Assembly (NCBI RefSeq): GCF_963678975.1
Contig: NC_089276.1
Span: 4,117,098-4,181,097, forward strand
Length of the DNA: 64,000 bases
DNA from: Dysidea avara
Taxonomy: Eukaryota > Porifera > Demospongiae > Dictyoceratida > Dysideidae
Direction of reading: 5' to 3'
Shown here: piece after piece, positions 16,501-43,500 of the stretch
How positions within the stretch are numbered: position 1 is the first letter of the stretch
How the letters are laid out: the number at the start of each line of letters is the position of its first letter
Program-made: the position numbers and the translations under genes
Notes under the pieces: generated by a model
What the model was told of the DNA's origin: nothing
The model's database searches: none
Seen by the model: only the letters and a program-made list of their open reading frames with translations

Positions 16501-19500
16501 TGTGTTACATGTTTGGGAACACTGCTTTGTACCTGTTGGCTCAGTTGACACATTTTCAATAGTTGGCTTTGGTGGTGGCATATCTGATGACGGCGTTTTG
16601 ACAGTGGGTAGAATGTCCTGCTGTTTTCTTTTACGATAGACATAGAACCCCACACTAATAATTAAATATCATATCAAAAATACATATACATACAGTAGCT
16701 GACCTGATCACTACAATAACTACAACGGCAATTACTGCAATAACTAGACCAGCAGTCACACCAGCTGCTATACCACTTGATCCAGATGATGGCTCGTTGG
16801 CTTCTTCTGCCTTTGTTCTTTCTATACAACAACAAAATTTATAATAATTCCCACTAACCACTACAATGTACCTGTTTCAATAGTCTTGATAGCAACACTG
16901 TTAGACCGGGGTCCTTCCAAGAATCCGTCATCTTCTTGAGTAGCAGCACTCACACTAATGGTATAGCTGGTGTTTGGAGTGAGATTTGGAAGGTTGAATT
17001 GTATTGGTTGTTGGTTTATTGTCAGTGACATATCTAATGGCACATTATACACTACGTGTTGCTCATCTTTACCAGCTGCTTGATAAAATACCTATAAGAG
17101 ACATTGCAGTACACCATACACATATACATAAGGCTCAAGTACATACAGTGTAATGATGGATTACTCCATTTCTTTTCAGTGGTGGTCTCCACAATATGTT
17201 GACCCATGTTGTTCCAATAGTCTCAATTATCAGATTAACAGGTGCAGATGGCTCTACAAATAGGTTACCATTTTTATGGGTTGCTGTACTATCACGTGTA
17301 TATATGTGTGGCATGTTATTGTGTGTGCATGTGTAGTGTAGTGTATGTGCGAGCATGTCCACAGGTGGTGTGTTATGTGGGCATGGTGCATGTGTTACAT
17401 ACCAGCAGCTGGGGTTGTAATTCCACAGAGCATTTCACTCTCTTTGGTATCAAATGTGACATTTGCTTGAGCATACACTGCTTGTAACCAGAAACAGTAG
17501 GTGGAATAAGGGAGTAAGTTATCAACTTTATATTCATTTGAAGTGGCAGAAATGCCATCAATGGCAATAGAGCTATCAGGGAGCTGTCGTCTCTCCACTT
17601 GTGACTGCTCTAATAAGCTATGATTGTTGTAATAGACCGTGAAACTATGTAATAGAGTTGTATTGGGTAGTGGGTCCCACTTCATTGTAAATGTCAATTC
17701 AGACAGTTTTGTATCTGGTAGATCCATTAATAGTTGTGGTTTGCTGCACACTAACAGAGAGACATACGTAGTCACCAAAGGATCATCCATAACTTCCAGC
17801 ATTTAACACAAGAATACAGAGAGTACTCTTTCTACCCTACCCAAAACATGGCATGAAAATTCTTGATGCAAACTTTTTTATGTATATTCCTGTGAAGAAA
17901 AGGGTGTGAGCTTTCAAAAATAGGCTAGTATGAAAAGGATGTGACAAAGATGGTAACTAATAAATGGCTGCAATGATATTATGTTGACAGTATAATATCA
18001 TTGCAGCCATTTTTTGGCTGCCACCTTTGATTTCACGTCTGGCCTATTTTTGGAAGGCTGCATGCATCATTTTTCACAGATTGGCTGTTTTGGATTAGAT
18101 ATAAATTTTTCACTGCACATGCTTGCTTCATTCTCAGGGTTTGTGAAAAACTAGGAAATGACAAAGCATTGATGGCAATTATTTGGAGCCGGTGTCACTA
18201 CTTGACTATGTAACCAGTTCATGGATACTTTCTTCACAGCTTCTACCATCATCAACATATTCTAACCAAACACTAGAACTAGATTGTTATGGATTAAAAC
18301 CAACATTTTAAAAGTGTACTGTCAGATTTACTCCCTCCCCCTAAGTGTATTCTCTATACTACTGTGAAATAATGGATGATCCCTTAATTGAAACTGTACA
18401 CTGATCTTGCCTACCTTGACATTCACCTAGAGTAAATGTTATGATGACTGGATTACTTGTAAAGTTAGCTACCATCACTACTGATACATTGTATGAAAAT
18501 GTTGGGACTAAATCGTTGATGGTGATGACATCAGTGTCTGCAGGATATATGTCTGTCTTGGTATGTGCTCTACTTGAAATTGTTACCACAATATTCTCTA
18601 TTGATGAGGTGTTTGTTGGTGGTAATATCCATGATACGGTGGCTGATACGTCACTGATAGATGTCACTGTTAAATCTCTGACATCTCCTGTTGTGCCTGC
18701 AACAAGTCAGTCAATGTAAAATACAAAATGCCTCAACAGTTGCTTCACAGAATACTGCCACCACGAAGGAACACTAGAGTATATACCACCCAGGTTCTAG
18801 GAGTCTATATAGATCCTTGTGGAGAAAGATAGGAAGCTATACCAAGTCTCACAGATGCATACCCTTGAGGAGTAGAAGCCTACAAGGCAAGGTTAGTTAG
18901 TTCAGTGGACATTTGCTTCACTGTCAGATTCCCCTTTCATACAGCTAGGTAAGCTGCTTTGGCAGGTTCCAATTTATATACTTGGGTAAACTGGAGCAAC
19001 ATGAGAAAATAAAAACAACAACAACAACAGCAATTAGGTTCTATCCCTCTCATGCTAACGCACACATTACACTATTCCACACAAATTCTTATCCATACCC
19101 TGTACAGTGACAATGGCCGGTTGAGATGTAGCCACTTCTCCTCTATGATTAGTTACTGTACACCAGTATATCCCTGTATCTCTGATATTAGCACTATTAA
19201 CTGAATAATTCATACTGTTTCCATTTGATAGTTCTTTATTGTCTTTCCTCCACTGATAAGTGATGTTACTCAATCCAAAAGTTGCCTCACAGTACAAAGT
19301 GAATGGAGAATTTACCATCACAGTTGTGTTCTCAGGATGTCTTGTGATGTCGGGGAGAACTATATACATGAGGAACAATATTCTAGTAAATTACAAACAT
19401 AAAATGAATTTAACAACAAGAATCCAAGTTATTAATTGTATTTTTGTTGTAAAATATCCTTTATGATAAATTAGATTATCTAAAATGTTAAACCAGGTAT

Positions 19501-40500: not shown

Positions 40501-43500
40501 CAGTAGAGCAATGAAAACAAATAACAGAACTACAATTCATTATGTAGAGTTTCAGCATAATTATAACTGCAGTAGCATGTTTTGAATCATACTGTTGTCA
40601 CTACAACATTTGTAGCCAAAATGTAGTGAGTTCCTTTAGTAGCCTTCTTCAGACTTGACCAATGACTTTTTATCTGATCAATATCAGTATTGCCAAGAGA
40701 TTAGTCAAGCATTACCAATGCCAAACATTTGGCTTGTGATGTTTATTACTTTCTTTTAATTATCTATTGTTAATGGATACAGTTTCTTTTCTTTGGCTGT
40801 ACAGACGATTCTCTGTATGCATCCTTCTGCTATGCTAATAGTGTATTATTTAATTTGATACTATGTATACTGGTACTTAGCCATGCTGTCCTACGTTTAA
40901 AACTTTATTGTCCTAGTTACATTATTTCATTATACTTAACTAAGTGACAAGCTAAGTTTCTATTAAAGTGTGTGATAGAATTGAAACAACGTTGGTTAAA
41001 AGAATACGTCTATTATTGTACTACCCTACAACCTACCTATTGTCACCACCTGCCGTAAAGCTCCTACTCACTGTTTTTTAAAGAGAGAAAATTGCAGGTA
41101 TAGAGTGAGAGAATAGGGTATAAGCATGAAGAGTTATGTTTCCATCAGGGAATTGGACCCACTACATCACAAACAATACAAAAAGATAAGCCATGTGTAA
41201 GTTGTATGACTTAGGTGTTTATTACTATGGAATTTACACAGGGAAGTCCAGCAAGTATTGCTCCTCATCCTTGCAATCAATATGCTGTGGATGATGAATG
41301 ACAGTTGCTAGAAGCTTCACTTAATATTCTTAACATGATGAGCACGTCAATTGGTGCAAAAACTTTAACACATGCGAAACTTGTGAGAATAGTGAGTGAC
41401 AGCAAAGGAATGCAGATGGAGAGACAGATAGACAGTTTATATAAAAGATTCTTATAACTTGAACAGTATGTATCAGTTACAATAGTCTCTTTACCATTGA
41501 TCCTTCCTATAGTTGATAAAGTAGTACCATTCTCATTAGTAGCTCCACACTGGTACATTCTACCATCATCATCACGTCTCACATTACTGATTACAAGTGT
41601 ATTAGAGTTAGCATCATCAATAACAACCTTGTCCTCATCTACTATCAACCAATGATACATTAAATTACGTTGACGTCCATGAGATGTAGCTCTACACTGA
41701 AACATTACAGTTTCTCCAACTGTAGTATTGATCAGTTGTTGAGGGTTGAGGGTGATCACTGGTGGAGGAACTGTAGAGATATATGGATAGATGTCATGAC
41801 ATTTGACACAAAATTGCTAAACACATGTGTAGTATATACTACTATGACATTGACACTTGCACATGCACGCATCTTGTATCACTATTGATTTTTATACTAG
41901 CACTAGGATTTTAAACAGTATACATGATTGTATTATTGTGATTGTTAATTGACACTTTCTGATAATAGCACAACATGGATAAGCCACATAACACTACTGC
42001 ACAGTCACAATTTATACTTTTTATTATCACTGCAAACACTATATAAGTCATCTAGAATAAAAGTGTAGTTAGCTTGGAGACAACTGTGAGCTACTTCCTA
42101 TACAACTAATAAATCTCAAGGCAAACTAAAGTGTAGCACATACAACATTAAAGGATGTATTCCTTACCAAACACTGTCAAAATAGCTCCAGTAGATGTTA
42201 CAATACCACTGGCATTAGTTGCCATGCAGTATATAGTAGTACCATTCATTGCAAGAGTTGCATTGATTGTCTTTGTAGATGACTCTGTATGTTCTGGTCT
42301 AATGTCAGAAAGCATGTCCTTATTAGGAAGGACAGTTATCCAAGTATGACTGGATAAGGTGGTAGTGCAATGAAATGAAACATCACTAAGACCTTCGCCA
42401 ATCACAACAGTAATGTCACTAGGATTTATAAGTATCTGAGGTAGATTTCCTGCAGGATAGTGAAAGATAGTAACTTTACGAAAATTAATAATCTTCTATA
42501 AACATTTATGTACTAGCTTGCCGGTCATGATTGTGCCAATGCATTTGTATAAAACGTAGAAAGCTGATTAGCTAATTTGCTTCTCTATTGTTGTATTGTG
42601 GGCCTTGGTGCATTCAAGGGGTAGGTTGGTTGTCACAAACACAAACGCTGTTCAACTACACAGAAATTCAAATTCAACCCATATTTAGCAAGTATTAGAA
42701 TCAAAATGCATACGGAATTATTAGCGTGAAAATTGTTAGCTAGTTTGATAGATAGAAACGTGATTACTAATGCTATTAAGAATAGTTATGTATCTGCGTG
42801 GTTGATGTTTCCAGTCACATTGTGTGTAATGAATACAGTACAAAACAGTGCAGATTTGCAGTGTAGGTGATGTGATGTTAAGCTAAACCATCACACAACA
42901 TACAATAAGCTACATTTAACATTTCTTTACTTGTTACAATCAACTGAGCTGGATTAGAAGTGTTCATATCATTCCAATGGTTAGTCACAACACATTGATA
43001 TGTACCACTATCCCCTTCACTGACTGATGAGATGGTAAACACTTTATCAGTAGCACCATCTATGTTAGTTCCATTAATCCTCCACTGGTATTTGAACTGA
43101 TCTGATCTGTAGCCATCTGTTTCACATGTGAATTGTACAACTTCAGTAACTTCTACTGACTGTAGAGCTGGACTAACTGATGCACTGATCAAACCTACAG
43201 TTTAATGTGCACAACAGATTGGGAATGAAGTAGGTATTTATAAAGAATGCCACACACTAAAATGCCATTATCAACCATTTGAAAGGTACTACGAACCCAG
43301 TATCTTTAAAGAAACAGTCTATGTGGCAGAAGTAAATAGCTACGGCAGTACATGCATGTGGCACCCACATTAATATGTACATACACAACATGCAATACAC
43401 ACACACACACACACACACACACACACACACACACACACACACAAATTTTCCTTGTTGCATCACTTCATATGACAAATTCCACCCAATGATGTAATGTTTA

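Follow-up and report, generated by a model that had tools for sequence, protein, structure and literature searches.

A tandem Ig exon array with near-identical exons and diverged introns in a sponge receptor-type phosphatase gene

The gene analysed here (gene 2) lies on the minus strand of a window of 64,000 nucleotides (C5:4117098-4181097; all coordinates below are positions in this window) and contains seven tandem copies of a two-exon Ig pair, called B and A, within the ectodomain of a receptor-type protein tyrosine phosphatase (RPTP). Exons of the same class are 95.0-99.6% identical in all 42 pairs, far above the similarity of the introns linked to them, which is the pattern of concerted evolution. 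The best explanation, and in our judgement a probable one from the sequence at hand, is that recurrent gene conversion between the copies, confined to the exons, has acted in an old array of seven B-A units.

The array runs from 41770 to 19099 and alternates strictly between B exons of 276 nt and A exons of 261 nt. This seven-fold alternation had been described in the initial annotation, and its coordinates and lengths proved exact. The copies had also been reported as intact: 14 of 14 exons indeed have an AG acceptor and a GT donor, and their frames are open and contain both the Cys pair and the core Trp (C26, C75 and W41 in B; C24, C67 and W37 in A); all are phase 1-1. Since each copy is flanked by its own introns, the copies are not assembly duplicates; there are also no N letters in the 104 kb around the array. 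Duplication or collapse of the copies by the assembler is on these grounds extremely improbable and was ruled out. Protein searches of the whole genome with B and A gave 504 and 1,030 initial candidates, the best 150 of which were scored in each case, leaving 141 and 150 matches. The top matches were the seven copies of each exon, and no further Ig exon more than 45% identical to B or A was found among the matches listed from these best 150. As far as these searches reach, the array is specific to gene 2.

Table 1. Features of gene 2 in window coordinates, with the evidence for each.
Feature	Position	Strand	Evidence
Signal-peptide exon, MFLLILLHFFVVSN	47447..47489	-	ATG, donor GT, phase 1, in-frame join
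Ig0 exon (N-terminal Ig)	47066..47395	-	phase 1-1; Pfam Ig_3 E=5.1e-6, below cut-off
Ser/Thr-rich linker exon 1	46909..47007	-	phase 1-1, in frame
Ser/Thr/Pro-rich linker exon 2	44155..44232	-	phase 1-1, in frame
Ig1 exon	43817..44113	-	Pfam I-set 5.3e-13; phase 1-1
Ig2 exon	42931..43194	-	Pfam Ig_2 1.4e-13; phase 1-1
Ig3 exon	42168..42449	-	Cys/Trp pattern by eye; phase 1-1
Array exon B1	41495..41770	-	identity, phase, splice/Cys/Trp check, Pfam Ig model
Array exon A1	39919..40179	-	identity, phase, splice/Cys/Trp check, Pfam Ig model
Array exon B2	38347..38622	-	identity, phase, splice/Cys/Trp check
Array exon A2	34488..34748	-	identity, phase, splice/Cys/Trp check
Array exon B3	33280..33555	-	identity, phase, splice/Cys/Trp check
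Array exon A3	32104..32364	-	identity, phase, splice/Cys/Trp check
Array exon B4	30972..31247	-	identity, phase, splice/Cys/Trp check
Array exon A4	28582..28842	-	identity, phase, splice/Cys/Trp check
Array exon B5	27831..28106	-	identity, phase, splice/Cys/Trp check
Array exon A5	26702..26962	-	identity, phase, splice/Cys/Trp check
Array exon B6	24840..25115	-	identity, phase, splice/Cys/Trp check
Array exon A6	21833..22093	-	identity, phase, splice/Cys/Trp check
Array exon B7	19724..19999	-	identity, phase, splice/Cys/Trp check
Array exon A7	19099..19359	-	identity, phase, splice/Cys/Trp check
FN3-1 exon	18415..18696	-	Pfam fn3 2.7e-7
FN3-2 exon	17403..17750	-	Pfam fn3 1.5e-6
FN3-3, two exons (17253-17147, 17091-16872)	16872..17253	-	second exon Pfam fn3 1.4e-4, below cut-off; phases fit
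Transmembrane exon	16704..16821	-	in-frame hydrophobic run AGLVIAVIAVVVIVVI
Cytoplasmic Ig (I-set) exon	16209..16481	-	Pfam I-set 6.1e-12; after transmembrane exon, before phosphatase
Phosphatase D1 exons, WPE loop and HCSAGVDRTG	13593..15351	-	PF00102 matches; motifs; four exon borders
Phosphatase D2 exons, P-loop HCSNGMGHSG, gene end	11118..12579	-	PF00102 12133-12579; P-loop join; stop codon by eye

The gene model was established by joining 28 exons, from the signal peptide (47489) to the cytoplasmic Ig (16209), into one frame of 2,207 codons with no stop (Table 1). This frame encodes, in order, a signal peptide, Ig0, two Ser/Thr-rich linkers, Ig1 to Ig3, the 14 array Igs, three FN3 domains, a single transmembrane segment (TM), a juxtamembrane region and the cytoplasmic Ig, so that signal peptide, extracellular domains and one TM stand together in a single frame, as in a receptor. 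The phosphatase exons are located 3' of the cytoplasmic Ig and outside the joined frame; two PTP domains follow the TM there, with PF00102 matches at 14663-14830 and 13599-13913 for D1 in addition to that for D2. A Pfam scan covered 10 exons of the gene. The 18-Ig ectodomain proposed by the initial annotation is borne out by the stop-free frame, with 17 Igs backed by Pfam (B1 and A1 representing the other, near-identical copies, and the Ig0 match lying below the model's cut-off) and Ig3, for which the scan gave no match, called from its Cys/Trp pattern. Two FN3 domains are above the Pfam cut-off, while FN3-3, matched in its second exon only, is below it.

The near-identity of the array exons is established in both classes, at 97.8-99.6% over 21 pairs of B and 95.0-97.7% over 21 pairs of A. 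Mean synonymous difference is 0.0215 (2.2%) in B and 0.0753 (7.5%) in A, and pN/pS is 0.53 and 0.36, respectively. The copies are thus under mild purifying rather than diversifying constraint, and an array of diversifying alternative exons was ruled out, the copies being near-identical and pN/pS below 1. No dependence of exon identity on the spacing between units was found.

Beyond the exon ends, where the first bases belong to the splice signals, it takes no more than 15-30 nt for ungapped identity to sink to about 0.25-0.4. This block comparison was cross-checked by gapped alignments. For stretches of 150 nt taken 60-210 nt from the exons, 83 of 84 same-class pairs were at or below the 99% level of random pairs, the sole exception being A-downstream, and mean identity was 0.735-0.753 vs 0.756 for random pairs treated with the same aligner. 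With flanks of 400 nt, 4 of 84 same-class pairs exceeded the 99% null. The divergence of the introns is thereby established, and what remains is a faint relationship by position: when whole introns were compared with shuffles, z exceeded 5 in 7 of 36 same-class pairs and in none of the 42 different-class pairs. The strongest pieces, between units 1 and 2, span 285 columns at 78% and 167 columns at 71%. A whole-intron A1/A2 alignment (804 columns, 72%) lacked a null and was replaced by this shuffle-based comparison. Carriage of the exons by transposable elements is not favoured, because introns of the same position keep this faint homology. The exon boundary is not absolutely sharp, as matches in seven exon pairs reach 303-339 nt and extend past the exon end, which we count against conversion.

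As controls we used three further Ig arrays from this genome (L040, L041 and C2:31.62-31.65 Mb), chosen from the matches of the B and A searches and not at random. They align continuously through exon and intron over 0.3-2.3 kb at 87-98%. The downstream flank is 94-100% alike in 19 of 19 control pairs and the upstream flank at least 94.7% alike in 12; in the other 7, each involving one outer copy, the upstream flank is at random level, which again counts against the conversion reading. Exons that are near-identical between diverged introns, unlike in the controls, point to an old array in which the exons alone have been kept homogeneous.

Within the exons, the distribution of differences in A is consistent with conversion. 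Its 29 variable sites are shifted towards the edges (mean 41.2 nt vs 64.7 nt expected, p=0.0002), and the shift is stronger for the 11 synonymous third-position sites (25.5 vs 64.7 nt, p=5e-5), none of which falls between nt 75 and 193. Such clustering is expected if conversion loses efficiency towards the point where homology ends and is not predicted by protein constraint. No edge effect was seen in B, where sites are few (11 sites, p=0.77; 4 synonymous, p=0.24). Site pairs incompatible with one tree amount to 9 of 21 informative pairs in A and 0 of 1 in B. The homoplasy in A, 3 extra steps, was reached in 6 of 400 simulations with all sites free to vary, but it was not significant when 40% of sites were free (48 of 400 simulations reached 3 steps). 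Exon similarity does not follow intron relatedness either: units 1 and 2 have the introns most alike, yet B1/B2 are tied for the lowest identity (97.8%) and A1/A2 are about average (96.2%).

On this basis, we propose that the B-A units were first duplicated long ago with their introns, that the introns then diverged almost completely, and that recurrent conversion between copies would have held the exons near-identical. We infer that conversion, if it is the agent, stays within the exons since their borders are where homology ends today, and that it mostly resolves without crossover, with no recent growth in unit number, because no recent intron duplicates are present. Selection, suggested by exons that are open, phase-symmetric and mildly constrained, would maintain a long and uniform ectodomain. 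A more far-reaching version, which we regard as rather unlikely, makes the array a number-stable ruler: exons would swap sequence continually, only with each other, and would respect their borders, possibly through RNA templates, diverged introns would block unequal crossing-over, and ectodomain length would be fixed even though its repeats changed in concert.

A rival reading is a recent tandem expansion by unequal crossing-over that is still changing in number, in line with the view of the initial annotation that such crossing-over could easily alter the repeat number. Near-identical exons would fit such an expansion, and their symmetric phase 1-1 would keep any gain or loss of units in frame, but it should have copied the introns as well, as in the three control arrays. 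The flank pairs at random level and introns that are at best 71-78% alike, in pieces, make a recent expansion improbable, and we reject it. An easily changing number is not supported, since no two introns look recently duplicated and homology between units is limited to exons of 261-276 nt; loss of units is possible. Nor is there support for the length-variable receptor that the initial annotation had proposed. Old exons could also have been conserved without any conversion, by strong selection at the nucleotide level that includes synonymous sites. The purifying pN/pS values agree with selection, but near-total constraint on synonymous sites would be required, the edge clustering and incompatible sites in A would be left unexplained, and in neighbouring genes, homologous coding exons reach an identity of just 77-80%; we therefore hold this explanation to be unlikely, too.

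Restriction of identity to spliced sequence would also be produced if the exons were homogenised from reverse-transcribed spliced RNA and not from another DNA copy. However, 0 of 13 array introns have been lost, the flank shared by several exon pairs would not be carried by a spliced template, and plain DNA conversion among intron-diverged copies yields an identical boundary. We hold RNA-templated exchange to be very unlikely and do not favour it over gene conversion between DNA copies.

As to function, the array accounts for 35 of the 51 N-glycosylation motifs that precede the TM. Together with 18 Ig and 3 FN3 domains, these 51 motifs suggest a long extended stalk, acting as a spacer or multivalent surface. 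The array would most likely form a very long spacer decorated with glycans, or a multivalent stalk, that keeps the membrane-distal Igs off the membrane, and we infer this spacer or avidity role from domain content. The nearest solved sequences to B-A include titin, Robo, DSCAM, contactins and LAR. These relatives fit Igs of adhesion type and identify no ligand.

In architecture, gene 2 represents a variant form of the Ig-FN3 tandem-PTP receptors. Like LAR-type (R2A) RPTPs, it has extracellular Ig and then FN3 domains, an order that by itself agrees with R2A, followed by one TM and two cytoplasmic PTP domains, and the solved relatives of B-A include Ig domains of LAR. LAR-type receptors have 3 Ig domains, whereas gene 2 has 18, 14 of them of two alternating types, a cytoplasmic Ig before D1, a D1 with WPE and a D2 without the P-loop Arg. 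Known RPTP forms thereby gain an unusually long and uniform ectodomain and a cytoplasmic Ig. A long Ig array with a possible spacer role also recalls titin, hemicentin and other long tandem-Ig proteins; these are not known to be receptor phosphatases, and their super-repeats are usually not near-identical. Alternating A/B pairs of Ig exons are shared with the CEACAM family, in which CEA has the order N-A1-B1-A2-B2-A3-B3; CEACAMs are not known to carry a phosphatase domain. According to excerpts of PMC7042247, bovine CEACAM1 paralogues undergo concerted evolution via gene conversion that affects exons, but introns only slightly. That conversion takes place between genes, whereas in gene 2 it would act between exons of one gene whose introns are near-unalignable. 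Dscam resembles gene 2 in having tandemly duplicated Ig-coding exons inside one receptor gene. Its paralogous exons diverge, and gene conversion was not detected among them, as stated in excerpts of PMC3236188. Dscam exons are alternatives, while the copies in gene 2 are all joinable in frame and, at the identities given above, lack the divergence of mutually exclusive exons.

We found no description of such an RPTP array, or of exon-confined conversion in tandem Ig exons, in open-licence papers, which is weak evidence of absence, and excerpts of PMC5336234 and PMC11999971 mention no RPTP from sponges that has an array of Igs. The contrast between exons and introns is unusually clear, and the array separates homogenisation of sequence from change in copy number, two processes usually thought to be linked; it does so inside one gene, where the 14 exons act as replicates. 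Should this hold in more individuals and in related species, nature would have provided a clean way to test whether intron divergence stabilises an array amid exon conversion.

In the cytoplasmic part, the Ig exon between TM and PTP domains is without the canonical Cys pair. The P-loop of D1 retains CX5R, but WPE replaces WPD, which is kept in D1 of the neighbouring gene, and the P-loop of D2 lacks its Arg. From these two motifs, signalling by gene 2 may be weak. The cytoplasmic Ig and the degenerate phosphatase motifs, like the restriction of identity to exons, were absent from the initial annotation. In a nuclear cox1-like copy of the 550.8-Mb genome (108 contigs), TGA is read as Trp (3 TGA, with one TAG stop), and the copy resembles demosponge sequences. 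A PF00102 search of this genome gave at least 184 exon-level matches.

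Two receptor tyrosine phosphatase genes of the window, the minus-strand gene carrying the seven-fold B-A Ig exon array (gene 2) and its neighbour (gene 1), encode a cytoplasmic I-set Ig domain placed after the transmembrane (TM) exon and before the first phosphatase (PTP) domain, D1. In both genes this domain is devoid of the canonical Cys pair. It has 27 matches in the genome, 25 of which are followed within 1.4 kb downstream by a PTP match, among the PTP matches listed; the adjacent TM was verified in only two genes. Judged from their motifs, D1 (WPE) and the second phosphatase domain, D2 (HCSNGMGHSG), are both degenerate in gene 2, whereas D1 of gene 1 looks intact. 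PTP-domain exons form large clusters on contigs C5 (3.2-6.2 Mb) and C9 (30-34.4 Mb), with many Ig exons near; these clusters are a big expansion of receptor phosphatases.

Features located in the window
Feature	Position	Evidence
Cytoplasmic I-set Ig, gene 2	16209-16481	Pfam I-set, 6.1e-12
Cytoplasmic I-set Ig, gene 1	52545-52883	by eye
D1 and D2 motifs, gene 2	11118-13913	
Inverted-repeat segment	35161-37148	
Reverse transcriptase-like ORF fragments	61348-62144	by eye

The top solved-sequence matches of the A exon protein were the multi-Ig tail proteins 9ncf_S (E=1.5e-35) and 9c2d_S (E=8.6e-26), these E values spanning repeated stretches. The longest array intron, B2-A2 (3,598 nt), contains 30-nt inverted repeats (97%) spaced 1,928 nt, probably a DNA transposon insertion. 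Upstream, ORF fragments resembling reverse transcriptase probably represent a LINE relic. Elsewhere, 21 cox1-like matches were dispersed over nuclear contigs (L033 and 20 other places); the longest reads TGA as Trp, yet contains one TAG.
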